This document shows, piece by piece, positions 23,742-36,465 of a stretch of 64,000 nucleotides of DNA. The notes beneath the pieces are model-generated. The model searched no databases, had not been told where the DNA came from, and saw only the letters and a program-made list of their open reading frames with translations. The position numbers and the translations under genes were made by a program. This stretch comes from an uncultured Clostridia bacterium (GTDB taxonomy: Bacteria; Bacillota; Clostridia; Christensenellales; CAG-138). Location of the stretch: contig CAMVNO010000003.1 of NCBI GenBank assembly GCA_947168855.1, forward strand, positions 281,474 to 345,473, read 5' to 3'. Numbering within the stretch: the stretch's first letter is position 1; every line of letters begins with the position of its first letter.

Positions 23742-23770
23742 TGGAAATTGCGAGAACAGTATGCTATAAT
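23742..23770 (+). promoter_or_regulatory. Extended -10 promoter for the hydrogenase operon
   Basis: TGGAAA (23742-23747), 17-bp spacer, TATAAT (23765-23770) preceded by TGC. The 248-bp gap here is strikingly AT-rich compared with flanking DNA, with A-tracts between 23600 and 23740 that may bend DNA or bind regulators; no gene is seen in it. Confidence 0.65.
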
Positions 23771-23808: not shown

Positions 23809-24306
23809 ATGACGAACAAAATCACCGAAATCCCGTTTCGGGGAACGCCCGAACAGGAAGCCAAACTGAAGGAGGTCATTGCGCAGCACAAGGGTCAGAC
23901 TGACGCAATGATGCCTGTGCTGCAGAAGGCGCAGGAGATCTACGGCTATCTGCCGATCGAAGTGCAGACCATGGTCGCGGAAGGACTCGGCGTGTCGCTT
24001 GAACAGGTTTACGGCGTTTCCACGTTCTATTCCTGGTTCACGCTGGAACCGAAGGGCGAGCATCTGATCCGCGTCTGCCTCGGAACCGCCTGCTATGTCA
24101 AGGGCTCTGCGGACATTCTTGCGGAGCTGGAGCGTCAGCTCGGCATCAAGGCGGGGCACACCACCAACGACGGCAAGTTTACGCTCGAAGCAACCCGCTG
24201 CCTCGGCTGCTGCGGTCTTGCTCCGGTTATGACGATTGACGACGACGTTTTCGGAAGACTGGTTCCCGCTGACGTCAAGGGTATCTTGGACAAATTCCGC
24301 GCATAA
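23809..24306 (+). CDS. hydC: NADH-dependent [FeFe]-hydrogenase subunit HydC (NuoE-like, thioredoxin-fold 2Fe-2S)
   Basis: The 165-aa protein matches the 24-kDa NuoE/HydC family: helical N-terminal half with MMPVLQKAQEIYGYLP and VYGVSTFYSWF, then a thioredoxin-like domain with cluster cysteines C90, C95, C131 and C135 (CLGTAC, CLGCCG). In trimeric bifurcating hydrogenases this subunit binds HydB and carries one [2Fe-2S]. AAGGAGG precedes the ATG. It is first of ten co-directional genes ending with hydB and hydA, and seven regulatory or accessory genes separate it from its enzyme partners. Confidence 0.93.
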   Translation: MTNKITEIPFRGTPEQEAKLKEVIAQHKGQTDAMMPVLQKAQEIYGYLPIEVQTMVAEGLGVSLEQVYGVSTFYSWFTLEPKGEHLIRVCLGTACYVKGSADILAELERQLGIKAGHTTNDGKFTLEATRCLGCCGLAPVMTIDDDVFGRLVPADVKGILDKFRA

Positions 24307-24322
24307 TCGAAAGGAAACGAGT

Positions 24323-24661
24323 ATGACTATCCGGGAGATCGCCGAACGAATCGACGCAGTTGTATATGCCGAGCCGGAACAGATGGACGAGGATATGAAC
24401 GGCGCGTTCGGCAGCGACATGATGAGCGACGTGCTTGCTTTCGCGGAAGACCGTGACGTGCTTCTGACGGGGCTTTTAAATCCGCAGATCGTGCGCACGG
24501 CGCATATGCTTGACATGAGCTGCATCATCATTGTCCGCGGAAAGACGGCAACGGAGGAGATCAAGCGGCTTGCCGCCGACAATCAAATCGCGCTGCTCGA
24601 GACCAAGCTGACGATGTATGAAGCCAGCGGCAAATTGTACGAAGGCGGTCTGGGAAGATGA
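24323..24661 (+). CDS. DRTGG domain protein (first copy)
   Basis: The 112-aa product (MTIREIAERID...) looks like a stand-alone DRTGG/HPr-kinase N-terminal-like domain, with GAFGSDMMSDVLAF, LLTGLLNPQIVRTAHMLDM and ALLETKLTMYEASGKLYEGG. Such domains also occur in phosphotransacetylases and CBS proteins and are thought to bind small ligands; no catalytic residues are apparent. AAAGGAAAC precedes ATG 24323; a longer frame from 24236 would overlap hydC. Its last 4 bases overlap the next start (ATGA). A second homologous gene lies at 26393. Confidence 0.8.
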   Translation: MTIREIAERIDAVVYAEPEQMDEDMNGAFGSDMMSDVLAFAEDRDVLLTGLLNPQIVRTAHMLDMSCIIIVRGKTATEEIKRLAADNQIALLETKLTMYEASGKLYEGGLGR

Positions 24662-25092
24662 CGGCAGACAGTAATGCACTCCATTTCCATTATGATGTGG
24701 ACGGGAACAATTTCACGTCCGCGGGCGAGGCTTCCGTTCAGGTGAAGCGGATGCTGCGGCAGATGGGATATCATCCCGATCTGATCCGCCGTATTTCCGT
24801 TGCAATGTACGAGGGCGAGATCAACATGGTCATCCACGCCAAGGGCGGGGACGCCGATGTTTACGTCACGCCGGACTGCATCACGGTCGTCCTGAAGGAC
24901 GTCGGTCCCGGCATCAAGGATGTCAATCTTGCCATGCAGGAAGGCTATTCCACCGCACCGGACAATATCCGTTCGCTCGGCTTCGGCGCCGGCATGGGTC
25001 TGCCGAACATGAAGCGTTACTCGGATGAGCTCAAGATCGATTCCGTCGTCGGCGTAGGCACGACGATTGAGATGACTTTCAGATCGGCATAA
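24658..25092 (+). CDS. Anti-sigma-factor-type ATP-binding protein (GHKL, RsbW-like), first copy
   Basis: The 144-aa protein is a single HATPase_c domain: N-box EGEINMVIHA, G1 box DVGPGI, G2 box GFGAGMGLPNM and a final GVGTTIEMTF strand. This matches RsbW/SpoIIAB-like serine kinases that bind partners or phosphorylate anti-anti-sigma factors. No anti-anti-sigma (STAS) gene is nearby, so the target is unclear; the neighbouring DRTGG proteins are candidates. Overlaps the upstream gene by 4 nt and is 9 bp before the iron-sulphur protein gene. Confidence 0.85.
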   Translation: MTADSNALHFHYDVDGNNFTSAGEASVQVKRMLRQMGYHPDLIRRISVAMYEGEINMVIHAKGGDADVYVTPDCITVVLKDVGPGIKDVNLAMQEGYSTAPDNIRSLGFGAGMGLPNMKRYSDELKIDSVVGVGTTIEMTFRSA

Positions 25093-25101
25093 GGAGGAAC
25101 C

Positions 25102-26385
25102 ATGATCGTATACAAGCATTCCGTCTCATTAGATGCGACCAAGTGCAAGGGGTGTACCACCTGCTTGCGCCGCTGCCCCACGCAGGCGATCCGCATCCGC
25201 GACGGCAAGGCTTGTATCAATCCGAACCTCTGCATCGACTGCGGCGAATGCATCCGCCATTGCCAGTACAAGGCGAAAAAAGCGGATTTCGACGAATGGG
25301 ATTCGATCGATCACTCGAAATACCTGATCGCGCTTCCCGCGCCGTCGCTGTTCGGTCAGTTCGCAAACCTCGACGATACCGACTATCTGCTGCAGGGGCT
25401 CAAAAACCTCGGCTTCAACGACGTGTTCGAGGTTGCCAAGGCAGCGGAAATGGTCACGGACTACACCCGCACCTACATGCATCGCATGGGGATGTCGCAT
25501 GCGCCGTTCATCAGCACGGCGTGTCCGGTCGTGGTCCGGCTCATTTCGCTTCGGTTCCCGTCTTTGAGAAGCAAGATGGTTCCGATCTGCCCGCCGATCG
25601 AGCTTGCGGGCAAGCTTGCGAAGGAACGCGCCCTCAAAGAGCATCCCGAGCTTTCGTCCGACGACGTTCGTACCGTGTTCATCTCCCCGTGCCCCGCAAA
25701 GGTCAGCTGGGTCAAGAACACGCCGGCGGATAAGGAATGCTATGTGGACTACGTGGTCTCCATGAGCGACATCTACTTCCGCGTCCTTTCCAAAATGAAT
25801 CGGGCAAAGATTCCGGAGGTGACTTCCGAATCCGGCATGATCGGCATGAGCTGGTCGTCGTCCGGCGGCGAAGCAAGCGCTTTGATGAACGATCACTATC
25901 TGGCGGCGGACGGCATCGAGAACATCATCCGCGTGCTCGACGATATCGAGATGGGACATTTCCCGGACCTGAAATTTGTCGAGATGAACGCGTGTCCCGG
26001 CGGCTGCGTCGGCGGCGTGATGGCGGTCGAGAACCCCTATATTGCCCGCGTACGGATCCGTGCGCTGCAGCGGTATATGCCCGTCGCGCAGAATCATGTG
26101 ATCCTCGGCGAGAACGATCCGATCCCGAGCGAGGTCATGACGGTCGAACCAGGCGAATACAGCTCCGCGGAGATTCTGGGCGCCGATCGGATGCAGTCGT
26201 TCCGCATGATGGCGGAGATCGAGCGCATCTACAAGATGCTGCCCGGCATGGACTGCGGTTCCTGCGGCGCACCGACCTGCCGCGCACATGCGGAGGACGT
26301 TGTGAGAGGCGAATCCAAGCTGGATGACTGCGTGATCCGCATGCGCGAGATCCTGAGAGAAATCGAACGCGACGACGGAAAGTGA
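25102..26385 (+). CDS. Hydrogenase-like iron-sulphur protein with degenerate H-cluster domain (HydS-type)
   Basis: The 427-aa protein has two [4Fe-4S] ferredoxin motifs (CKGCTTCLRRCP and CIDCGECIRHC), then a domain homologous to the [FeFe]-hydrogenase large subunit: L1 STACPVV, L2 SPCPAKV, L3 NACPGGCVGG, and a C-terminal Fes-type motif CGSCGAPTC. The four cysteines expected to hold the cubane of the H-cluster remain, but the L2 glutamate, the GGGxP ending of L3 and the proton-relay cysteine position of L1 are changed. It is therefore probably an electron-transfer or sensing protein and not a hydrogenase. AAGGAGG precedes the ATG. It sits between two ATPase/DRTGG sets in the operon. Confidence 0.85.
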   Translation: MIVYKHSVSLDATKCKGCTTCLRRCPTQAIRIRDGKACINPNLCIDCGECIRHCQYKAKKADFDEWDSIDHSKYLIALPAPSLFGQFANLDDTDYLLQGLKNLGFNDVFEVAKAAEMVTDYTRTYMHRMGMSHAPFISTACPVVVRLISLRFPSLRSKMVPICPPIELAGKLAKERALKEHPELSSDDVRTVFISPCPAKVSWVKNTPADKECYVDYVVSMSDIYFRVLSKMNRAKIPEVTSESGMIGMSWSSSGGEASALMNDHYLAADGIENIIRVLDDIEMGHFPDLKFVEMNACPGGCVGGVMAVENPYIARVRIRALQRYMPVAQNHVILGENDPIPSEVMTVEPGEYSSAEILGADRMQSFRMMAEIERIYKMLPGMDCGSCGAPTCRAHAEDVVRGESKLDDCVIRMREILREIERDDGK

Positions 26386-26392
26386 GAGAGCT

Positions 26393-26722
26393 ATGACAGT
26401 ACGCGATCTGATCGAGAAAACCGGATACGAACCCCTGCTGCTGTCCGAAGAGGACCGCGAGATCACCGGCGGATACGCGGGCGATCTTCTGAGCTGGGTC
26501 ATGGGACGCGCCGAAAGCGGCGATTGCTGGGTCACGATCATGTCCAACGTGAACGTGGCGGCGGTCGGGCAGCTGACGGACTGCGCCTGCATCGTGTTTT
26601 CGGAGGGCGTCCGTCCGGACGAAGCGGCGGTCAACGCCGCAAGGCTGCACGGGCTGAACCTGCTTTTGACCGAGAAATCCACATTTGAGGTCTGCACCGA
26701 GGTCGGTGCGCTGCTCAGATGA
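26393..26722 (+). CDS. DRTGG domain protein (second copy)
   Basis: The 109-aa product (MTVRDLIEKTGYEPL...) has the same layout as the first DRTGG protein: GGYAGDLLSWVMG, a central SNVNVAAVG strand, DCACIVFSEG and LLLTEKSTFEVC. It differs enough from the first copy to suggest separate roles, possibly different ligands. Its stop overlaps the PHP gene start by 4 nt, so the two are translationally coupled. Confidence 0.78.
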   Translation: MTVRDLIEKTGYEPLLLSEEDREITGGYAGDLLSWVMGRAESGDCWVTIMSNVNVAAVGQLTDCACIVFSEGVRPDEAAVNAARLHGLNLLLTEKSTFEVCTEVGALLR

Positions 26723-27438
26723 GGACGGTCGCGTACGATCTGCATCTGCATTCGTGCCTGTCTCCGTGCGGAGACATGGATATGACGCCCTGCAACATCG
26801 CGGGAATGGCGCATCTTTGCGAACTCGGCATCGTTGCGCTGACGGACCATAACGCGGTCGACAACTGTCCTGCATTCTTTGCAGCGTGTGAAGAGTACGG
26901 GATCGTGCCGATCGCGGGCATGGAACTGACGACGGCGGAGGATATTCATCTTCTGTGCATCTTTGAAACGCTCAACGAAGCGCTTGCCTTCGGAGCGGCG
27001 GTCAAGGAGCACCGGATGAAGATCAAAAACCGTGTCGAGATCTTCGGCGAGCAGCCGATCCTGAACGAACGGGACGAAAAGATCGGAGAGGATCCGTACT
27101 TTCTCCCGGCGGCGACGGATCTGGACCTTTGCGCGGCGGCGGAACTGGTCAGCGCGCACAACGGCGTCTGCTGGCCGGCGCACATCGACCGGGATTCAAA
27201 CGGACTTCTGGCTGTTCTCGGCGCATTTCCGCCGGAACCGGTGTTCCGCATCGCCGAGCTCAGAGATTCCGAAAATGCGAAGCTTGCCGAAGGACGCACG
27301 ATCGTGGTCTGTTCGGACGCGCACCGGCTCTGGGAGATCGGTCAGGCGGGCGGAACGCTGACGCTGGACACGGACGAGACCGATCCGGACGCCGTACGGC
27401 ACGCGTTGTTTACGAAGCTCAGGGAGGGGAGACTGTGA
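26719..27438 (+). CDS. PHP-domain phosphoesterase
   Basis: The 239-aa protein has the four PHP metal motifs: DLHLHSCLSPCGD, LTDHNAVDNC, GMELTT with a later HLLC, and SAHN..PAHIDRDS and CSDAHRLW. This is the trinuclear metal phosphoesterase fold of polymerase-associated PHP and histidinol-phosphatase-like enzymes. A small phosphorylated metabolite or RNA end are both possible substrates. Conserved association with DRTGG proteins in this operon suggests a role in a phospho-signalling step. Overlaps both neighbours by 4 nt. Confidence 0.85.
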   Translation: MRTVAYDLHLHSCLSPCGDMDMTPCNIAGMAHLCELGIVALTDHNAVDNCPAFFAACEEYGIVPIAGMELTTAEDIHLLCIFETLNEALAFGAAVKEHRMKIKNRVEIFGEQPILNERDEKIGEDPYFLPAATDLDLCAAAELVSAHNGVCWPAHIDRDSNGLLAVLGAFPPEPVFRIAELRDSENAKLAEGRTIVVCSDAHRLWEIGQAGGTLTLDTDETDPDAVRHALFTKLREGRL

Positions 27439-27989
27439 AGGAGCTCAGCCTGAACATACTCGATATTGCGCAAAACTCGATCCGCGCGGAAGCGACTCTG
27501 ATCGAGATCCTGCTGGACGAGACGGACACGTCTCTGAAGCTGACGATCCGGGACAACGGCTACGGGATGTCGGAAGCATTTCTGAAAACCGTCGTCGATC
27601 CGTTCTCCACGACGCGCACCACGCGCAAGGTGGGAATGGGAATCCCGCTTCTGAAGCTTGCCGCAGAGCAGACGGGGGGAACGCTGACGATCCGGTCCAC
27701 GGAACGCGCGGTCGATCCCGAACACTGCGGAACGGAGATTTCCGCGACGTTCGACAAGACGCACCTTGATTTTACACCGCTCGGCGACGTGGTCTCCACG
27801 ATCACGCTGCTGATCCGCGGAAGCGCGAAAACGGATTTTCTTTTCCGGCACACCATGAAGGACCGCACGGTCGAGCTCGACACGCGCGAGGTCCGACAGG
27901 TTTTAGGGGACGACGTACCGCTCGACGAATACGAAGTCCTCGCATGGATCCGGGATATGCTGACGGAGCAGTATGCTTCGGAGGCTTGA
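27435..27989 (+). CDS. GHKL ATPase (histidine kinase-like ATP-binding protein), second copy
   Basis: The 184-aa product begins with GTG at 27435 inside the PHP stop (GTGA), with GGGAGGGGA upstream. It has a GHKL core: LDIAQNSIRA (N-box), IRDNGYGM (G1), RKVGMGIPLLKLAAEQTGG (G2) and TEISATF. The extra C-terminal 60 residues (FLFRHTMKDRTVELD...) are not recognised. It lacks a phosphoacceptor or sensor domain. The first part of the longer open frame is only shadow sequence of the PHP gene. It is the second ATPase in the operon and more like a histidine-kinase ATPase than RsbW. Confidence 0.82.
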   Translation: MKELSLNILDIAQNSIRAEATLIEILLDETDTSLKLTIRDNGYGMSEAFLKTVVDPFSTTRTTRKVGMGIPLLKLAAEQTGGTLTIRSTERAVDPEHCGTEISATFDKTHLDFTPLGDVVSTITLLIRGSAKTDFLFRHTMKDRTVELDTREVRQVLGDDVPLDEYEVLAWIRDMLTEQYASEA

Positions 27990-28032
27990 AATATTCAGAA
28001 AAGAAATAACAGAAAACGAAAGGATCAAACTC

Positions 28033-28404
28033 ATGAAATCATTGAAAGAACTTGCAGAAATTCGTGAAAGAATGAAAAACAAGGTCGCTCTTCGGGAAGG
28101 CACCGGTGAGATCCGCGTCGTCGTCGGCATGGCGACCTGCGGCATCGCGGCAGGCGCACGCCCCGTTCTGAACGCCTTTGTGGAACAGGTTGCGGAGCAG
28201 AACCTCAGCGACCGTGTGACCGTCACGCAGACCGGCTGCATCGGCATGTGCCGCTTTGAGCCGATCGTCGAAGTCTTTGAGGGTGATAAGGAGCGCGTGA
28301 CCTATGTCAAGGTCAAGCCCGAAATGGTTCCCGAGATCATCAAGCAGCATCTCATCGACGGCAAACCCGTCACAAAATACACCATCGGTGCGGTGGAAGC
28401 ATAA
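28033..28404 (+). CDS. Thioredoxin-like 2Fe-2S ferredoxin
   Basis: The 123-aa protein resembles the stand-alone NuoE-type/thioredoxin-like [2Fe-2S] ferredoxins found with HydB: MATCGIAAGA for one pair of ligands region and TGCIGMC for the other. A helical N-terminus KSLKELAEIRERM resembles the equivalent gene in clostridial hydrogenase operons. ATG 28033 with AAAGGA upstream is preferred over 27973, which would overlap the ATPase gene. Position immediately before hydB suggests it exchanges electrons with that flavoprotein. Confidence 0.87.
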   Translation: MKSLKELAEIRERMKNKVALREGTGEIRVVVGMATCGIAAGARPVLNAFVEQVAEQNLSDRVTVTQTGCIGMCRFEPIVEVFEGDKERVTYVKVKPEMVPEIIKQHLIDGKPVTKYTIGAVEA

Positions 28405-28419
28405 CGGAGGAAAGACAGA

Positions 28420-30213
28420 ATGATTCGTACGCATGTTTTGATTTGCGGCGGTACGGGTTGTACCTCTTCCGGCAGCGTCAAGATTGCCGATGCACTGGAA
28501 GAACAGATCGCATTGAACGGCCTTGCTGATGAAATCAAGGTCGTACGCACGGGCTGCTTCGGCCTTTGCGCACTCGGTCCGGTCATGATCGTGTACCCGG
28601 AGGGCACGTTCTACAGCCGCGTGAAGCTCGAGGATGTTCCCGAGATCGTTTCGGAGCATCTCCTGAAGGGCCGCGTCGTCGACCGTCTCGTATATCGCGA
28701 GACCGAAGGCGAGGAAAAGGTCGAGGTCCCGTCGCTGCAGGAAACCGGCTTCTACAAGACGCAGATGCGTGTTGCGCTTCGCAACTGCGGCGTCATCAAC
28801 CCGGAGCAGATCGACGAGTACATCGCGATGGACGGCTATGCCGCTCTCGGCAAGGTGCTCACCGAAATGACGCCGGAAGAAGTCATCCAGGTCATGAAGG
28901 ATTCGGGTCTTCGCGGCAGAGGCGGCGCAGGCTTCCCGACCGGCATGAAATGGGATTTCGCGGCAAGAAATAAGGTCCCGCAGAAGTACGTCGTCTGCAA
29001 CGCGGACGAGGGCGACCCCGGCGCGTTCATGGACCGTTCCGTCCTTGAAGGCGACCCGCACGCGGTTCTCGAGGCAATGGCGATCGCGGGCTATGCGATC
29101 GGCGCAAACAAGGGCTACATCTACGTTCGTGCAGAGTACCCGATCGCGGTCAAGCGTCTTGAGATCGCAATCGGTCAGGCGCGTGAATACAACCTGCTCG
29201 GCAAGGACATCTTCGGCACCGGCTTCGACTTTGACATCGAAGTACGTCTCGGCGCAGGCGCGTTCGTCTGCGGCGAAGAGACCGCGCTTCTGACCTCCAT
29301 CGAGGGCAACCGCGGCGAGCCGAGAAACAAGCCCCCGTTCCCGGCGAACAAGGGTCTGTTCGGTCAGCCGACGATCATCAACAACGTCGAAACGCTCGCC
29401 AACATCCCGCAGATCATCCTGAAGGGCGCAGACTGGTTCGCATCCATGGGCACCGAACGCTCCAAGGGCACCAAGGTCTTCGCGCTCGGCGGCAAGATCG
29501 TCAACACGGGTCTTGTTGAGATCCCGATGGGCACCACGCTCCGCGAGATCATCTACGACATCGGCGGCGGCATTCCGAACGGCAAGAAGTTCAAGGCGGT
29601 TCAGACCGGCGGTCCGTCCGGCGGCTGCATCCCCGCGGAATACCTCGACCTGCCGATCGACTATGACAACCTCATCAAGATCGGCGCGATGATGGGCTCC
29701 GGCGGTATGATCGTCATGGACGAAACGACCTGTATGGTCGACGTCGCGCGCTTCTTCCTCGACTTCACGGTCGACGAGAGCTGCGGCAAGTGCACCCCGT
29801 GCCGTATCGGTACGAGACGCCTTCTCGAAATGCTTGACAAGATCACGTCCGGCAACGGCACGCTCGAGGATCTCGACAAGATGGAAGAGCTGTGCAACTA
29901 CATCAAGGCAAACGCAATGTGCGCGCTCGGTCAGACGGCGCCGAACCCGGTCCTCAGTACGCTGAAGTATTTCCGCGACGAGTACGAAGCGCACGTCGTC
30001 GAAAAGCGCTGCCCGGCGGGCGTCTGCAAGAACCTCATGCATTATGAGATCCAGCCCGACAAGTGCCGCGGCTGCACGCTCTGCGCGCGCAAGTGCCCGG
30101 CAGGAGCGATCACGGGCAAGGTCAAGGAACCGCATGTCATCGACCAGTCGAAGTGCATCAAGTGCGGCGCCTGCATGGAAGGCTGTAAGTTCTCGGCCAT
30201 CGTCAAGAAATAA
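28420..30213 (+). CDS. hydB: NADH-binding flavoprotein subunit HydB of bifurcating [FeFe]-hydrogenase (NuoF-like)
   Basis: The 597-aa protein has an N-terminal thioredoxin-like [2Fe-2S] domain (CGGTGC ... TGCFGLC), the NuoF core with FMN loop GLRGRGGAGFPTG and NADH loop GAGAFVCGEETALL, the N3-type cluster SCGKCTPCRIG, and two C-terminal [4Fe-4S] motifs (CRGCTLCARKCP, CIKCGACMEGC). This is the full HydB layout, longer than respiratory NuoF. In HydABC enzymes the flavin couples NADH and reduced ferredoxin oxidation for H2 production. GGAGG lies 11 bases upstream; hydA starts 11 bp after the stop. Confidence 0.96.
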   Translation: MIRTHVLICGGTGCTSSGSVKIADALEEQIALNGLADEIKVVRTGCFGLCALGPVMIVYPEGTFYSRVKLEDVPEIVSEHLLKGRVVDRLVYRETEGEEKVEVPSLQETGFYKTQMRVALRNCGVINPEQIDEYIAMDGYAALGKVLTEMTPEEVIQVMKDSGLRGRGGAGFPTGMKWDFAARNKVPQKYVVCNADEGDPGAFMDRSVLEGDPHAVLEAMAIAGYAIGANKGYIYVRAEYPIAVKRLEIAIGQAREYNLLGKDIFGTGFDFDIEVRLGAGAFVCGEETALLTSIEGNRGEPRNKPPFPANKGLFGQPTIINNVETLANIPQIILKGADWFASMGTERSKGTKVFALGGKIVNTGLVEIPMGTTLREIIYDIGGGIPNGKKFKAVQTGGPSGGCIPAEYLDLPIDYDNLIKIGAMMGSGGMIVMDETTCMVDVARFFLDFTVDESCGKCTPCRIGTRRLLEMLDKITSGNGTLEDLDKMEELCNYIKANAMCALGQTAPNPVLSTLKYFRDEYEAHVVEKRCPAGVCKNLMHYEIQPDKCRGCTLCARKCPAGAITGKVKEPHVIDQSKCIKCGACMEGCKFSAIVKK

Positions 30214-30224
30214 GGAGGGCGACT

Positions 30225-31967
30225 ATGGATACCATTAAAATGAAAATTAACGGAAGAGAGATCGAGGTTCCCGCGGGTTCCACCATTCTGGAAGCGGCGG
30301 AGCTTGCCGGCATCCGGATTCCGACCCTTTGCTACATGAAGCAGATCAACGCGATCGGCGCCTGCCGTATGTGCGTTGTCGAAGTCAAGGGCGCGCGCAG
30401 TAACCCCGTTGCGTGCCTGATGCAGGTTGCGGAAGGCATGGAAGTGCAGACGAATACGCCCGCGCTTCGCGCATCCCGCAAGATGACCCTCGAGCTGATG
30501 CTTTCGAACCACCGCATGGACTGCCTGAGCTGCGTGAGAAGCGGCAACTGCGAACTGCAGGCGCTTTCCCAGGAATACGGCTGCGACGCGCATAAGTTCG
30601 ACGGCGCACCCACCGAGCCGGACATCGACGATTCCGCGATCCATCTCATCCGCGACAATTCGAAGTGCATCCTTTGCCGCCGCTGCGTAGCGGTCTGCAA
30701 ATACAACCAGCACTGCAACGTCATCGGCGCAAACGAGCGCGGCTTCAAGACCCACATCGCAAGCGCGTTCGATCTGCCGCTGGCGACCACATCCTGCGTC
30801 AACTGCGGTCAGTGCATCAGCGTCTGCCCGACCGGCGCGCTCACCGAGCGTGACGACACCGACAAGGTCTGGAAAGCGCTCTCCGATCCCGAAATGCATG
30901 TGGTCGTCGGTCCCGCACCGTCCGTCCGCGTACAGCTCGGCGAAGAATTTGACATGCCGATCGGCACGAACGTCGAAGGCAAGATGATCGCAGCGCTCCG
31001 CCGTCTCGGCTTCGACAAGGTATTCGACGTCGACAACGCGGCTGACGTCACGATCATGGAAGAGGGCACCGAGCTGATCGGCCGTCTCAAGAACGGCGGC
31101 AAGCTCCCGCTCATCACGAGCTGCAGCCCCGGCTGGATCAAGTTCTGCGAGCACTACTATCCGGAATTCATTCCGAATCTTTCGAGCTGCAAATCGCCGC
31201 AGGGCATGTTCGGCGCACTTGTCAAGTCCTACTATGCCGAGAAGATGGGCATCGACCCGAAGAAGATCTTCGTCGTTTCCATCATGCCGTGCACCGCGAA
31301 GAAATTCGAGGTACAGCGTCCCGAGCTCGGCAAGGACGGCAGACCGGACGTCGACGTATCGCTCACCACGCGTGAACTGGCTCGCATGATCCGCCGCGCG
31401 GGCATCAAGTTTGCGGATCTCCCCGACGAGGTCTGCGATCCGATGCTTGGCGTCGCTTCCGGCGCAGGTCACATCTTCGGCGCAACCGGCGGCGTTATGG
31501 AAGCTGCTCTGCGTACCGCGTACGAAGTCGTCACCGGCAAGACGCTTGAGAAGGTCGAATTCCACGACGTCCGTGGCACCGCGGCGATCAAGGAAGCCGA
31601 ATACGATCTGAACGGCGTCAAGGTCCGCGTTGCGGTCACCAGCGGTCTCGAGAATGCTTCGAAGCTTCTTGACATGATCAAGAGCGGCGAGAAGCAGTAC
31701 GAGTTCGTTGAGGTCATGGCGTGCCCCGGCGGCTGCGTCAACGGCGGCGGTCAGCCGATCCAGCCCGGCGCAGTCCGCAACTTCGTGGATCTCCGCGCAA
31801 AGCGCGCGGCGGGCCTCTACGGCGAAGACGACAACATGCCGCTCCGCAAGAGCCATGAGAACCCCGAAGTGCAGGCGCTCTATCGCGACTATCTCGGCGA
31901 GCCGAACGGTCACAAGGCGCACGAGCTATTGCATACGCACTACACCGAGCGCGGTCTGTACAAATAA
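30225..31967 (+). CDS. hydA: [FeFe]-hydrogenase catalytic subunit HydA (bifurcating, group A3 type)
   Basis: The 580-aa protein has an N-terminal plant-type [2Fe-2S] domain (CYMK.. ACRMC, C64), a His/Cys cluster motif (HRMDCLSCVRSGNC, 96-109), two [4Fe-4S] motifs (CILCRRCVAVC, CVNCGQCISVCP) and the H-cluster domain with L1 TSCSPGW (298-304), L2 MPCTAKKFE (354-362) and L3 MACPGGCVNGGGQP (498-511), ending in a small-subunit-like ARAHE-type tail (KAHELLH). L1 reads SCS where the textbook motif is SCC. AGGAGG precedes the ATG. Maturases HydEFG are not in the window. A terminator follows. Confidence 0.96.
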   Translation: MDTIKMKINGREIEVPAGSTILEAAELAGIRIPTLCYMKQINAIGACRMCVVEVKGARSNPVACLMQVAEGMEVQTNTPALRASRKMTLELMLSNHRMDCLSCVRSGNCELQALSQEYGCDAHKFDGAPTEPDIDDSAIHLIRDNSKCILCRRCVAVCKYNQHCNVIGANERGFKTHIASAFDLPLATTSCVNCGQCISVCPTGALTERDDTDKVWKALSDPEMHVVVGPAPSVRVQLGEEFDMPIGTNVEGKMIAALRRLGFDKVFDVDNAADVTIMEEGTELIGRLKNGGKLPLITSCSPGWIKFCEHYYPEFIPNLSSCKSPQGMFGALVKSYYAEKMGIDPKKIFVVSIMPCTAKKFEVQRPELGKDGRPDVDVSLTTRELARMIRRAGIKFADLPDEVCDPMLGVASGAGHIFGATGGVMEAALRTAYEVVTGKTLEKVEFHDVRGTAAIKEAEYDLNGVKVRVAVTSGLENASKLLDMIKSGEKQYEFVEVMACPGGCVNGGGQPIQPGAVRNFVDLRAKRAAGLYGEDDNMPLRKSHENPEVQALYRDYLGEPNGHKAHELLHTHYTERGLYK

Positions 31968-32120: not shown

Positions 32121-33128
32121 ATGGAAGAAGGATCGGTCCGGAAAATGCGTGAAGAATGGGAAAAGCAGATGCTTTCCCCGTATGCGACGCTGTCGGTCAA
32201 CACGCGCGGACGCGAGGTTCCGATGGATCTTTGCCCGGTGCGCACGGAGTTCGTGCGCGACCGCGATCGCATCCTGCACAGCAAGTCCTTTCGTCGATTG
32301 AAGCATAAAACACAGGTCTTTCTGGCGCCGAAGGGCGATCATTACCGCACGCGGCTCACACACACGCTGGAGGTCACGCAGATCGCGCGGACGATCGCGC
32401 GGGCGCTCCGGCTTAATGAGGACCTCGCCGAAGCGATCGCCATGGGGCACGATCTCGGACATACGCCGTTCGGACATGCCGGAGAGGAAGTATTGAACGA
32501 GCTTCTGCCCGGCGGATTCAAGCATAACGAGCAGAGCCTGCGCGTCGTCGAAAAGCTCGAATACGACGGCAAGGGGCTGAACCTCACCTGGGAGGTGCGC
32601 GACGGCATCGTGAACCACACGAGCAGCGGGCATCCGGCGACGGTCGAGGGCAAGGTCGTTTCTCTGGCGGACCGCATTGCCTACATCAATCACGACATCG
32701 ACGACGCGATGCGCGCGGGCGTTCTGAACGAAGAAGATCTGCCGCGCTCCTGCATCGAGCTGTTCGGACCGACGCATTCCAAGCGCATCAACAGCTTGAT
32801 CATCAACGTGATCCAAAACAGTCAGAACAGCGCGGACATCCGCTTTTCGCCCGATTATGCCGACGAGTTCAAGGTTCTGCGCAAGTTCATGTTCGATCGC
32901 GTCTACCTGAATCCGGTCGCCAAGAGCGAGGAGGGCAAGGCGAAGGGCGTTGTGCGTGCGCTGTATGCGTATTATTACGAGCATCCGGAGCTTCTGGACG
33001 TCGAGTATCAGGCGACGCTTGAAGCGGAGGGCAAGGAACGCGCGGTCGCCGATTTTATCGCCGGCATGAGCGACACCTACGCAATCAGCACCTATGAACA
33101 CGTTTTCGTGCCGAAGAGCTGGAGCTGA
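32121..33128 (+). CDS. dgt: dGTP triphosphohydrolase-like HD-domain protein
   Basis: The 335-aa protein has the dGTPase family layout: FRRLKHKTQVF near the N-terminus, the HD metal residues in RTRLTHTLEVTQIAR and MGHDLGHTPFGHAGE, and SLADRIAYINHDIDDA for the final aspartate. It would cleave dNTPs to deoxynucleosides and triphosphate and help balance precursor pools. Upstream of dnaG and sigA it is in the place usual for Firmicutes. GGAGG lies 5 bases before ATG 32121. The short C-terminus matches the type-2 family. Confidence 0.93.
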   Translation: MEEGSVRKMREEWEKQMLSPYATLSVNTRGREVPMDLCPVRTEFVRDRDRILHSKSFRRLKHKTQVFLAPKGDHYRTRLTHTLEVTQIARTIARALRLNEDLAEAIAMGHDLGHTPFGHAGEEVLNELLPGGFKHNEQSLRVVEKLEYDGKGLNLTWEVRDGIVNHTSSGHPATVEGKVVSLADRIAYINHDIDDAMRAGVLNEEDLPRSCIELFGPTHSKRINSLIINVIQNSQNSADIRFSPDYADEFKVLRKFMFDRVYLNPVAKSEEGKAKGVVRALYAYYYEHPELLDVEYQATLEAEGKERAVADFIAGMSDTYAISTYEHVFVPKSWS

Positions 33129-33163
33129 AGCAATTTACAAAACACGGGGAAAGGAGGCGCGCG

Positions 33164-34921
33164 ATGGCATTTCCGAGCGCATGGCTCGATGAGCTGCTGC
33201 ACAAAAACGATATCGTATCCGTTGTGTCGGAATACGTCGAGCTGAAGCCCAAGGGCAGAAAGCTTTGGGCGTGCTGTCCGCTGCACGGCGAAAAAACGCC
33301 GTCCTTCTCCGTTTCGCCGGACAAGCAGCTTTTTTACTGCTTCGGCTGTCACGCGGGCGGCACGGTCATCCAGTTCGTGATGGACATGGAGCGGCTGACG
33401 TTCTATGAGGCGGTCCAGATGCTCGCAAACCGCGCGAATATGGAGCTGCCGAACGAGATCAACGACCGCGAGATGCAGCGCCAGCGTGCGTACAAGAAGC
33501 GGCTGATCGAGGCGAACACCGAGGCGGCGCGGTATTATTCCGGCTGCTTCCTGAATCCGGCGATCGGCAAGGACGCGCAAGGCTACGCCGCAAGACGCGG
33601 GCTGAACGCCGAGATCGTCACGCGATTCGGCATCGGTTACGCGCCGGATACCTGGGATTCGCTTCTGAAGCTGTTGAAGGGCAAAGGTTATTCCGAGAAG
33701 GAGCTGGTCGACGCGGGGCTTCTGGTGCACAACGCCGAGCGCAACACCGTCTACGACGCGTTCCGCGGACGGCTGATCTTCCCGATCCTCGGGGTGAACG
33801 GACAGGTCCTCGGCTTCGGCGCGCGCGTGATGGGCGACGAAAAGCCGAAATACATCAACACGGGCGATACGCCGGTCTACAACAAGCGCAACAACCTTTA
33901 CGGACTGTACCTGCACAAAAACGAAAAGCTTGACGACCTGATCATGGTCGAAGGGTACATGGACGTGATCGGACTGTATAAGGCGGGCGTGAAGAACGCC
34001 GTTGCGAGTCTCGGCACGGCGCTGACACAACAGCAGGCGCGGCTTCTGAAACGCTATGTCGAAAAGGTCTACATCTGCTACGACGGCGACGCGGCGGGGC
34101 AGAACGCCACGGTCCGCGGGCTTGATATCCTGAAAGCCGAGGGGCTGGAGGTCCGCGTCATCACGATCCCGGACGGGCTCGATCCGGACGAATACGTGCA
34201 GGTCTACGGCAAGGAGGGCTTCGACCGGCTCAAAGAAAATGCGCTTTCGCTGAACGCATTCAAGCTCGAAGCGATGGCGAAGGGGTACGATCTGAACGAC
34301 GAGAACGGACGCGAGCGCTATGCCAAAACGGCATGCGCGTTCGTTGCGGGTCTGCAGCCGATCGAGCAGGAACGGTATTACCGGCTGATCGCAAAAAAGA
34401 CCGGCTACGCGCTGGAAGCGCTTGAGGCGCAGGGCGTACGGAGCGGCGGTCTGCAGATGACGGAGGATCGCACGCCGATCCGCGGCGGCTTCCGCAGACG
34501 GATCGAAACGGGCGAAGACCCGCGCGATGTGACGGAACGCACACTGATTCTTGCGTGTCTGCATGATAAACTCGCGCTGAGCCGGGCGATTGCGGAGAAC
34601 GCGGCGGAGCTGATCAAGAACGACACCTACCGCGCCATGTTTCTGGCGATGTGCGAGCAGGGCAGCGCGTTCTCGGCGGCAAAGTACATCGGCGAGCTCG
34701 ATGAAAAACAGGCGGAGACCGCGTCGGCTGTGCTCAAGGAAGAGGACGCGATGGAGAACGCGATCGAGACAACGGCGGACTGCATTCGCCGCATGCGGCG
34801 TGAGAGCGCGGAGGATGAGATCGCGGCGCTGCGGGCAAAGCTCAATAAACCGGATTTGACGGCGGAGGAACGAAACGCCGTTTTGAAAGAGATCACCGAA
34901 CGCATACGGGCAAATAAATAA
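33164..34921 (+). CDS. dnaG: DNA primase DnaG
   Basis: The 585-aa primase has the CHC2 zinc finger ([12 protein letters not shown] ... YCFGCHAGG), the RNA polymerase domain with [10 protein letters not shown] and TOPRIM metal motifs ([20 protein letters not shown]), and a helical C-terminal region for helicase binding. It synthesises RNA primers at the replication fork. Start has GGAGG 9 bases upstream; sigA begins 11 bp after its stop, the ancient dnaG-rpoD pairing. Confidence 0.97.
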
Positions 34922-34932
34922 GGAGACGGGAC

Positions 34933-36465
34933 ATGGAAGAAACAAAAACCACCAAAAAGACCAGGAAGACCAAGCAGGAAGAGGTCAAGGACGTGACGGA
35001 ACCGGTCGAAGCGCAGGAAGCGCCCAAGAAGACCGCAAAACACGCGGCAAAGCCGAAAAAGGAAGAACCGAAGCCGGAAGAACAGCCGATCGAAACGCCG
35101 GTCGAATCCGCGCAGGAAGCGGTCGAACCCGAGCCCGAAAAGCCGAAGAAGGCTTCCAAAAGCCGCAAGAAGGCGGAGCCTAAGCCGGAAGAAGCACCGG
35201 TTGAGCCTGTGCAGGAACCCGAACCGGTCGAAGCACAGCCGGAACCGGAACCCGCGCCGGAACCGCTTCCCGAACAGGACAAGCCTGTGAAGAACAGCGC
35301 GAAGAAAGAATCAAAATCCGCGAAAAAGACCGAGAAACCCGAAGAAAAGCCGGAGCCGGAAGAGGAATCCGACGAGGATGAAGACGAACCGAAACCCGCC
35401 AATGCGGAGCAGCGCATTCGCGAGCTTCTGGAAAGCGGCAAGCAGAAGGGCGTTCTGACGTTCAACGAGGTCATGGATACGCTGAACGAGCTCGGCGTGG
35501 ACGCAGACCAGATGGACAAGATCTACGGCGAGCTGGAAGAGCTGAACATCGACATCGTCGAAGAGATCGAGGTTCCCGAGGATATCAACGAAGAGATCGC
35601 CGAGATCGAAACGATGCTGGCGCCGACCGAGGGCATCAACATCGACGACCCGGTCCGTATGTATCTCAAGGAAATCGGCAAGGTCCCGCTTCTGACCGCG
35701 CAGCAGGAAATCGACATCGCACAGCGGATGGCGGAAGGCGACCTCGACGCCAAGCATCAGCTTGCGGAAGCGAACCTTCGACTGGTCGTTTCGATCGCAA
35801 AGCGTTACGTCGGCCGCGGTATGCTGTTCCTCGACCTCATTCAGGAGGGCAACCTCGGCCTGATCAAGGCGGTCGAAAAGTTCGACTACCGCAAAGGCTA
35901 TAAGTTCTCCACGTACGCGACGTGGTGGATCCGTCAGGCGATCACCCGCGCGATCGCGGACCAGGCGCGCACGATCCGCATCCCGGTCCATATGGTGGAA
36001 ACGATCAACAAGCTGATCCGCGTCAACCGTCAGCTTGTGCAGGAGCTCGGCAGGGATCCGCGCCCGGATGAGATAGCAAAGGAAATGGGCATCTCGGAGG
36101 ACAAGGTCCGCGAGATCCTGAAGATCGCGCAGGAGCCGGTCTCCCTCGAAACGCCGATCGGCGAAGAGGACGATTCGCACCTCGGCGATTTTATCCCCGA
36201 CGATGATGCGCCCGCGCCCGCGGACGCCGTGGCGGTCGCGCTTTTGAAGGAACAGCTTGTGGAGGTTCTGAACACGCTGACCCCGCGCGAAGCGAAGGTG
36301 CTGCGTCTCCGTTACGGCCTGGACGACGGCAAGGCAAGAACGCTCGAAGAGGTCGGCAAGGAGTTCAACGTCACGCGTGAGCGCATCCGTCAGATCGAAG
36401 CAAAGGCGCTGCGCAAGCTCCGCCACCCGTCCCGGAGCAAAAAGCTCAAGGACTTCCTCGAATAA
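34933..36465 (+). CDS. sigA: Primary sigma factor SigA (RpoD) with long charged N-terminal extension
   Basis: The 510-aa protein has all regions of a housekeeping sigma: 1.2 ([16 protein letters not shown]), 2 ([34 protein letters not shown]), 3 ([14 protein letters not shown]) and 4.2 ([18 protein letters not shown]). Region 1.1 ([21 protein letters not shown]) starts near residue 157. Ahead of it lie about 156 residues of low-complexity sequence dominated by Lys, Glu, Pro and Ala ending in a poly-acidic run. Firmicutes SigA is normally near 370 residues, so this extension is unusual. AAGGAG precedes the ATG. The promoters noted in this window have the hexamers such a sigma would read. Confidence 0.97.

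Follow-up and report, generated by a model that had tools for sequence, protein, structure and literature searches.

A putative redox-sensing gene module around a group D [FeFe]-hydrogenase, found beside bifurcating hydrogenase genes and their substitutes

The operon for an electron-bifurcating hydrogenase (HydABC) in an uncultured Clostridia bacterium carries seven further genes between hydC and hydB, and this raises the question of what these genes sense and which enzyme they control. We analyzed a stretch of 64,000 nucleotides from this organism (contig CAMVNO010000003.1 of assembly GCA_947168855.1; hereafter, the window). The ten genes lie on the plus strand at positions 23809-31967, in the order that the original prediction had given. 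It had read the seven inserted genes as one phospho-signalling unit with a redox sensor. A sensory or regulatory set beside the bifurcating hydrogenase is well supported; however, the sensor candidate is a group D hydrogenase (HydS) and not the gene for a 2Fe-2S protein. The best single account, and in our judgement a moderately probable one, is that the genes form a portable redox-sensing regulatory module, which tunes the ferredoxin/NAD enzyme encoded with it and for which H2 sensing is optional.

HydS had been described as a degenerate hydrogenase. Instead, it is of an intact group D type, with the four H-cluster cysteines, the K358 equivalent, and the eight N-terminal and four C-terminal iron-sulfur (FeS) cysteines present. 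The reading as a degenerate pseudo-enzyme was discarded on this cysteine count. The protein consists of two ferredoxin-type [4Fe-4S] motifs (cysteines 15, 18, 21, 25, 44, 47, 50 and 54), the hydrogenase H-domain (ligating cysteines 141, 197, 298 and 302), and a C-terminal Cx2Cx4Cx16C cluster motif (C385, C388, C393 and C410). No PAS domain was matched in HydS at E-values up to 1. Among 177 aligned HydS rows, all four H-cluster cysteines were invariant, and the other cluster cysteines were kept in 176-177. The C299 place was A in 137 rows, S in 36 and never C (A140 in the window), and the M353 place was S in 112 and T in 61 (S195). The M497 place was N in 84 rows, Q in 59 and L in 18, with N296 in the window. 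TamHydS, from Thermoanaerobacter mathranii, has L at this place. As far as the consulted parts of the two reports on it go (PMC8163306, PMC10407848), it has in common with the window HydS the domain plan, the C-terminal motif, the changes of C299 to A and M353 to S, and the proton path E252/E289/D265/S249, which corresponds to E257/E294/D270/S254 when TamHydS residues are placed by motif, with the numbering shifted by a constant 5, rather than by direct alignment. The same parts give these residue and cluster features for group D (M2e) hydrogenases. By its sequence, the window HydS is a group D (M2e) "putatively sensory" [FeFe]-hydrogenase.

Of 398 genomes sampled from the GTDB phylum of the window, its own genome included, 160 have a relative of HydS (E-value up to 1e-40). 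The locus sample comprised 96 regions from 92 HydS genomes and the best 80 named loci, the nearest among the matches listed (176 in total); 38 more were added later, giving 214 stretches, in which a few contigs occur twice and one stretch (L273) lacks HydS. For the flank counts, we used the 149 loci in which hydS is flanked by 2 kb or more in both directions, and the 27 of the 176 with shorter flanks were excluded. An RsbW-like gene was adjacent or fused to hydS in 142 of them, a PHP gene was found around hydS in 131, the second DRTGG gene (DRTGG2) in 128, the first (DRTGG1) in 121, and all four in 102. The association of the RsbW-like, PHP and DRTGG genes with hydS exceeds chance. Since frames were called from stop to stop, some missing neighbours are artefactual; the GHKL gene of the window itself was once missed in this way.

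The order of these genes differed between the two sets. In 71 of the 96 regions, the hyd genes follow the module; in 6 the two diverge, and in 19, several of which end at a contig edge, the contiguous cluster lacks a hyd gene. None was nested. In the best 80 named loci, 57 were nested, 9 had the module first, 10 were divergent and 4 were without hyd genes. Nesting is thus a lineage variant, that of the rumen and gut, and the core shared by the loci is DRTGG-RsbW-HydS-DRTGG-PHP. Outside this variant, the module lies ahead of hydABC or is divergent from it. The GHKL gene mostly lies between hydC and the ferredoxin-like gene, and directly after PHP in nine loci of one arrangement as well as in several loci without hyd genes. 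The supposed single seven-gene unit therefore splits elsewhere into this core and a hyd operon that usually carries the GHKL and ferredoxin-like genes. The survey of gene order among relatives, which had been proposed as a check, showed conservation far beyond close relatives; outside the phylum, the evidence for the spread is only the operon printed for Halanaerobium in the part of PMC4237134 consulted.

Natural fusions, defined as frames without an internal stop that hold both families, were looked for among the five module families. DRTGG1-RsbW fusions were found in six loci (L135, L137, L139, L144, L159 and L247; families f48, f99 and f78), RsbW-HydS fusions in two (L166 and L189; f115), HydS-DRTGG2 fusions in two (L151 and L160; f44), and PHP-GHKL fusions in five (L191, L193, L196, L200 and L241; f23). 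Each type was seen in at least two genomes. By the first three types, every adjacent pair from DRTGG1 to DRTGG2 is fused somewhere. No fusion to HydA, HydB or HydC was seen in this test, which was limited to the five module families. The fusions argue for physical complexes.

The predicted ATP and metal sites of the partner proteins are conserved. RsbW-like proteins have E52, N56, D81, G83, G85, G96 and T99 in 172 of 172 rows; E52 and N56 are the catalytic Glu and the Asn of a Bergerat ATP site. The second GHKL ATPase keeps D10, N14, D40, G42, G44, G67 and G69 in 99-100% of 155 rows; its C-terminal part had no family match, and the protein showed no phospho-acceptor domain in the profile search. 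Candidate metal ligands of the PHP protein (H9, H11, D43, H44, E69, H77, H155, D200 and H202) are kept in 97-99% of 156 rows. The two DRTGG proteins are paralogues. In DRTGG1, all of 141 rows have S35 and nearly all have T49, and in DRTGG2, S34, T48, D31 and N54 are invariant (150 rows); these are candidate phospho-acceptors or fold residues. With ATP and metal sites intact, phospho-signalling by the module is plausible. The product named a 2Fe-2S ferredoxin is a ferredoxin-like protein of the thioredoxin fold; among solved structures, it best matches the N-terminal domain of a HoxF/HydB-type subunit. Folds of this type usually use four cysteines. However, only three are conserved, C36 in 140 of 140 rows and C69 and C73 in 139. 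Because one usual cysteine is missing and the gene more commonly travels with hydC and hydB, it is not regarded as the sensor.

HydA at 1e-150 was found in 148 of the 160 HydS genomes versus 128 of the 238 genomes without HydS (odds ratio 10.6), which favours a link to the hydrogenase. HydG at 1e-75 was not found in 47 of the 160. This absence was not used alone as proof, because one genome (G337) has HydF but no detected HydG. The same genome has a HydA frame with one internal TGA (C5:35302-37041). Genomes were counted as firmly maturase-negative when both HydF and HydG were under cut-off, namely the own genome of the window (G000), five genomes of family f39 (G028, G173, G223, G295 and G379; 84-99% complete), G138, G154, G104 and G027. 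The five f39 genomes have no PF02906 protein other than HydS and no HydA at 1e-150. In their HydS, Q stands at the K358 place and again at the TamHydS E252 place, and the cluster cysteines are retained. In G027, the K358 place is E. H2 sensing thus looks optional, since the f39 HydS lost two [2Fe]-site residues where neither HydF nor HydG is over cut-off; from the comparison with relatives, the module probably does not depend on hydrogen for what it senses. For the window HydS, H-cluster binding and reaction with H2 are doubtful, because neither HydG nor HydF exceeds the cut-off in its own genome. HydS was not matched in two further f39 genomes, G108 and G247, both of which have HydA and HydG. 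Within genera g110 (G108 and G379) and g42 (G247, G028 and G295), a genome has either HydA and HydG without HydS or HydS without both.

The enzyme encoded with the module is also exchanged. In 12 of the 214 stretches (L183, L191, L192, L193, L196, L198, L200, L202, L203, L209, L239 and L241), the place of HydA is taken by a NuoG-like protein without the H-domain, which runs past one in-frame TGA into a formate dehydrogenase alpha subunit. The NuoG-like part matches HydA only at about positions 4-220 of the 586-position profile, and family identity was checked by profile for L196, L200 and L239. L209 additionally has a full HydA, and fdhD adjoins the locus in L239. L172, where the molybdopterin match is weaker (178 bits), is not included in this count. 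The in-frame TGA stands at a conserved place in the 12 loci (HCARL-TGA-H) and probably encodes selenocysteine. In L197 and L205, rnfC and rnfD lie directly downstream of the module and hyd genes are absent. Near the module in the 176 loci, we found an RnfC-like gene downstream in 19, Rex in 22, Nfn-like genes in 9 and RseC-like genes in 10. On a fast HydS tree of 99 rows, at least 10 partner changes were needed versus 21.3 in shuffles. Formate dehydrogenase accounted for 4 changes, of which well supported branches force at least 2, and Rnf for 2; long branches make the details of this tree unsure. Minimal RsbW-HydS pairs occurred with a response regulator and a histidine kinase (L049, L175 and L204), and a DRTGG-RsbW-HydS set with CheW, which was recognised by Pfam in L040 and by eye in L042.

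From these results, we propose the following mechanism. DRTGG1, the RsbW-like ATPase, HydS and DRTGG2 would form one complex, and PHP and GHKL a second unit, as the fusions suggest. The low-potential pool would reduce HydS through its FeS clusters, that is, ferredoxin, and H2 where the H-cluster is complete; we infer reduction as the signal. The change in HydS may reach the ATPases by way of its C-terminal cluster and the DRTGG proteins; the ATPases would then switch a partner by ATP-dependent binding or by Ser/Thr phosphorylation. The predicted PHP phosphoesterase would reverse such a phosphorylation. The presumed target of this output is the co-encoded enzyme, usually HydABC and elsewhere a HydBC-type formate dehydrogenase or Rnf, whose activity would be tuned. 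A further-reaching proposal is that HydS is an FeS redox sensor with a dispensable [2Fe] site and forms, with the RsbW-like ATPase and the two DRTGG proteins, a new class of FeS-gated ATP switch that was transferred between hydrogenase, formate dehydrogenase and Rnf operons. We put this forward tentatively, as possible but short of probable.

Several results weigh against redox sensing with H2 as an option. The K358 place is K in 171 of the 177 HydS rows and the E252 equivalent is also kept by most HydS proteins, as would be expected of a working H2 site. Three maturase-negative genomes (G104, G154 and G138) keep K and E, so the loss of [2Fe]-site residues is not universal; it rests mainly on the one family f39, and E at the K358 place also occurs in G368 (L204), which has HydG. 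Full-length HydA stands at 130 loci versus 17 frames without the H-domain (and one cut by a contig end). There is no STAS antagonist or sigma factor inside the module. Moreover, purified TamHydS turns over H2 and sits before a bifurcating hydrogenase, as given in the part of PMC8163306 consulted. A dedicated H2 sensor is a strong rival. On this reading, H2 would bind to a complete H-cluster in HydS and the module would repress or induce hydABC, a role of the kind proposed for TamHydS and for group C HydS of R. albus and T. maritima. It is favoured by this property of TamHydS, by the retention of the group D residues and all H-cluster ligands, and by the co-occurrence with HydA. However, modules exist in which formate dehydrogenase or Rnf replaces HydA, the five f39 genomes with altered [2Fe]-site residues show no HydA and neither HydF nor HydG above the cut-off, none of the 23 genomes of the window's genus (g1; 59-97% complete) has a HydG that passes it, and no HydF does so in the window's own genome. 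We judge a dedicated H2 sensor rather unlikely.

The two GHKL ATPases and the FeS protein might alternatively serve not as a signal route but as an ATP-driven activase or assembly factor, which reductively activates or assembles the flavin or FeS neighbour. The RsbW-HydS fusion, which joins an ATPase to an FeS protein, the strict pairing with large FeS/flavin complexes, and the RseC-like genes that adjoin GHKL in some loci would fit such a role. The likeness to RsbW/SpoIIAB, on the other hand, indicates partner binding and kinase action, modules adjoin response regulators, a histidine kinase and CheW, and the five f39 genomes retain the module without HydA or any other PF02906 protein; an activase is improbable. 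Least probable of all is a classical partner switch on a sigma factor, with the RsbW-like protein as the anti-sigma factor. Its top NCBIfam match is anti-sigma F, the nearest solved structure by sequence is SpoIIAB (1tid, 1.1e-6), and it shares with the SpoIIAB/RsbW kinases the GHKL fold, the N-box Glu and Asn, and the G1 and G2 motifs. However, the scores are far below the curated cut-offs (TIGR01925, 58.1 of 135 bits; NF003144, 21.4 of 145). Unlike those kinases, it is tied by fusion to HydS and DRTGG and has no STAS or sigma partner in the cluster. STAS was matched in none of the ten operon proteins, and the five STAS matches of the genome are on contigs C1, C2 and C5 and none on C3. A sigma-A-like operon promoter points weakly the same way.

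In portable redox sensing, the reading preferred here, the putative sensor is of a kind already known, and its set of partners is newly outlined. In the consulted parts of the reports, TamHydS likewise has a bifurcating group A hydrogenase and an HK-like ATPase encoded nearby (PMC8163306, PMC10407848), and the neighbours named are this one ATPase and an AraC-type regulator, whereas the window module adds DRTGG, PHP and GHKL partners and the fusions. TamHydS was hypothesised to be a sensor, and the signal route of group D hydrogenases was posed there as an open question (PMC8163306). Halsa_1862-1871 of Halanaerobium hydrogeniformans (hydrogenase, NuoF-like, ferredoxin-like, histidine kinase, NuoE-like, PHP, two FeS/hydrogenase-like, anti-sigma/ser-thr kinase and one unidentified open reading frame) matches arrangement B of the module in order, and the consulted part prints it as a putative operon with no functional reading (PMC4237134). 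Upstream of the bifurcating hydrogenase, Clostridium thermocellum (Cthe_0340-0342) and Thermoanaerobacter hyd loci have kinases, phosphatases and a group D-like hydrogenase (PMC3492117, PMC3608648). A response of the C. thermocellum kinases and phosphatases to H2 or redox was suggested in 2012 (PMC3492117), and the group D-like hydrogenase and a kinase were upstream in every Thermoanaerobacter examined (PMC3608648); as far as seen, neither account analyses the module as a whole or describes an exchange of partners. Group C HydS (T. maritima, R. albus) and HfsB are likewise hydrogenase-derived putative sensors adjoining hydrogenase genes. They carry a PAS domain, whereas the window HydS has none and has separate ATPase and DRTGG partners. 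A search of the open literature for DRTGG together with hydrogenase gave nothing that looked related. We met no prior account of the fusions, the exchange with formate dehydrogenase and Rnf or the [2Fe]-residue loss in the open literature, of which we saw part; pieces may be in print (Calusinska 2010, Zheng 2014). The fusions name direct partners, and thus co-purification and ATPase tests are straightforward. If the redox reading is true, partner exchange and [2Fe] loss would replace the accepted name "H2 sensor" by a broader one, a sensor of low-potential electrons. The electron-bifurcating enzymes under its control would be those that govern the H2, formate and ethanol output of gut and biofuel anaerobes.

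Features of the operon are listed in Table 1. Three 4-nucleotide overlaps were found (DRTGG1/RsbW, DRTGG2/PHP and PHP/GHKL) where four had been claimed, and the remaining gaps are 16, 9, 7, 43, 15 and 11 nucleotides.

Table 1. Positions of the hydC-hydA operon features in the window
Feature	Position	Strand	Basis
Promoter-like site, extended -10, before hydC	23742..23770	+	TGGAAA-17-TATAAT, TG ahead
hydC (NuoE-like, 165 aa)	23809..24306	+	PF01257 1.7e-53
DRTGG protein 1 (112 aa)	24323..24661	+	PF07085 1.3e-6, above cut-off
RsbW/SpoIIAB-like GHKL ATPase (144 aa)	24658..25092	+	PF13581 2.5e-10
HydS, group D (M2e) putatively sensory [FeFe]-hydrogenase (427 aa)	25102..26385	+	motifs, residues
DRTGG protein 2 (109 aa)	26393..26722	+	DRTGG 18.6 bits, under Pfam cut-off 25.2
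PHP-domain metallo-phosphoesterase-like protein (239 aa)	26719..27438	+	PF02811 4.6e-9
Second GHKL ATPase (GTG start, 184 aa)	27435..27989	+	PF02518 1.6e-12, residues 9-109
Ferredoxin-like thioredoxin-fold protein (123 aa)	28033..28404	+	three conserved Cys
hydB (NuoF-like, 597 aa)	28420..30213	+	profile matches
hydA (580 aa), group A6 in NCBIfam	30225..31967	+	NF040763 898.6 bits, cut-off 765

Promoter-like sites of the listed type numbered 5 in the region versus 3.0 expected, which makes the hydC site weak evidence for a promoter. Terminator-like sites in the region (7 versus 8.8 in shuffles) were not in excess. The window HydA, HydB and HydC are of the bifurcating type with cluster motifs present, and HydA is over the curated score. 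A damaged HydA (TSCSPGW for TSCCPGW) was ruled out, as the same motif occurs in 111 of 112 HydA frames and in the solved A. woodii HydA1. HydA keeps every H-cluster motif in the six loci of the genus where it is within the stretch (of nine fetched), and HydS is present in 22 of the 23 genomes. The HydE-like protein of the own genome is below cut-off (181.7 of 254.6). In this genus, only this orphan HydE-like radical SAM protein (L254:4941-5924) accompanies the intact hydABC and HydS motifs, and the maturation route of HydA is puzzling. By eye, the frames 3' of hydA (32121-36465) resemble a dNTPase, primase DnaG and a primary sigma factor.

Rex-like sites with at most 3 mismatches to a Rex consensus were found in 48 of 168 upstream stretches versus 8.6 expected from simple shuffles that preserved base composition alone. 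Rex-operator-like palindromes lie upstream of the module in L043, L118, L138 and others; the best site before hydC of the window has 5 mismatches to that consensus, and no Rex-like site is present there. These sites are no more than a hint. The RseC-like genes adjoin GHKL in L150, L154, L157, L169, L176, L180, L199, L206, L210 and L050, which suggests a further redox component. In L049 (7237-9147, minus strand), an H-domain protein fused to a methyl-accepting chemotaxis domain adjoins the RsbW-HydS pair and is a candidate chemoreceptor for H2 or redox.

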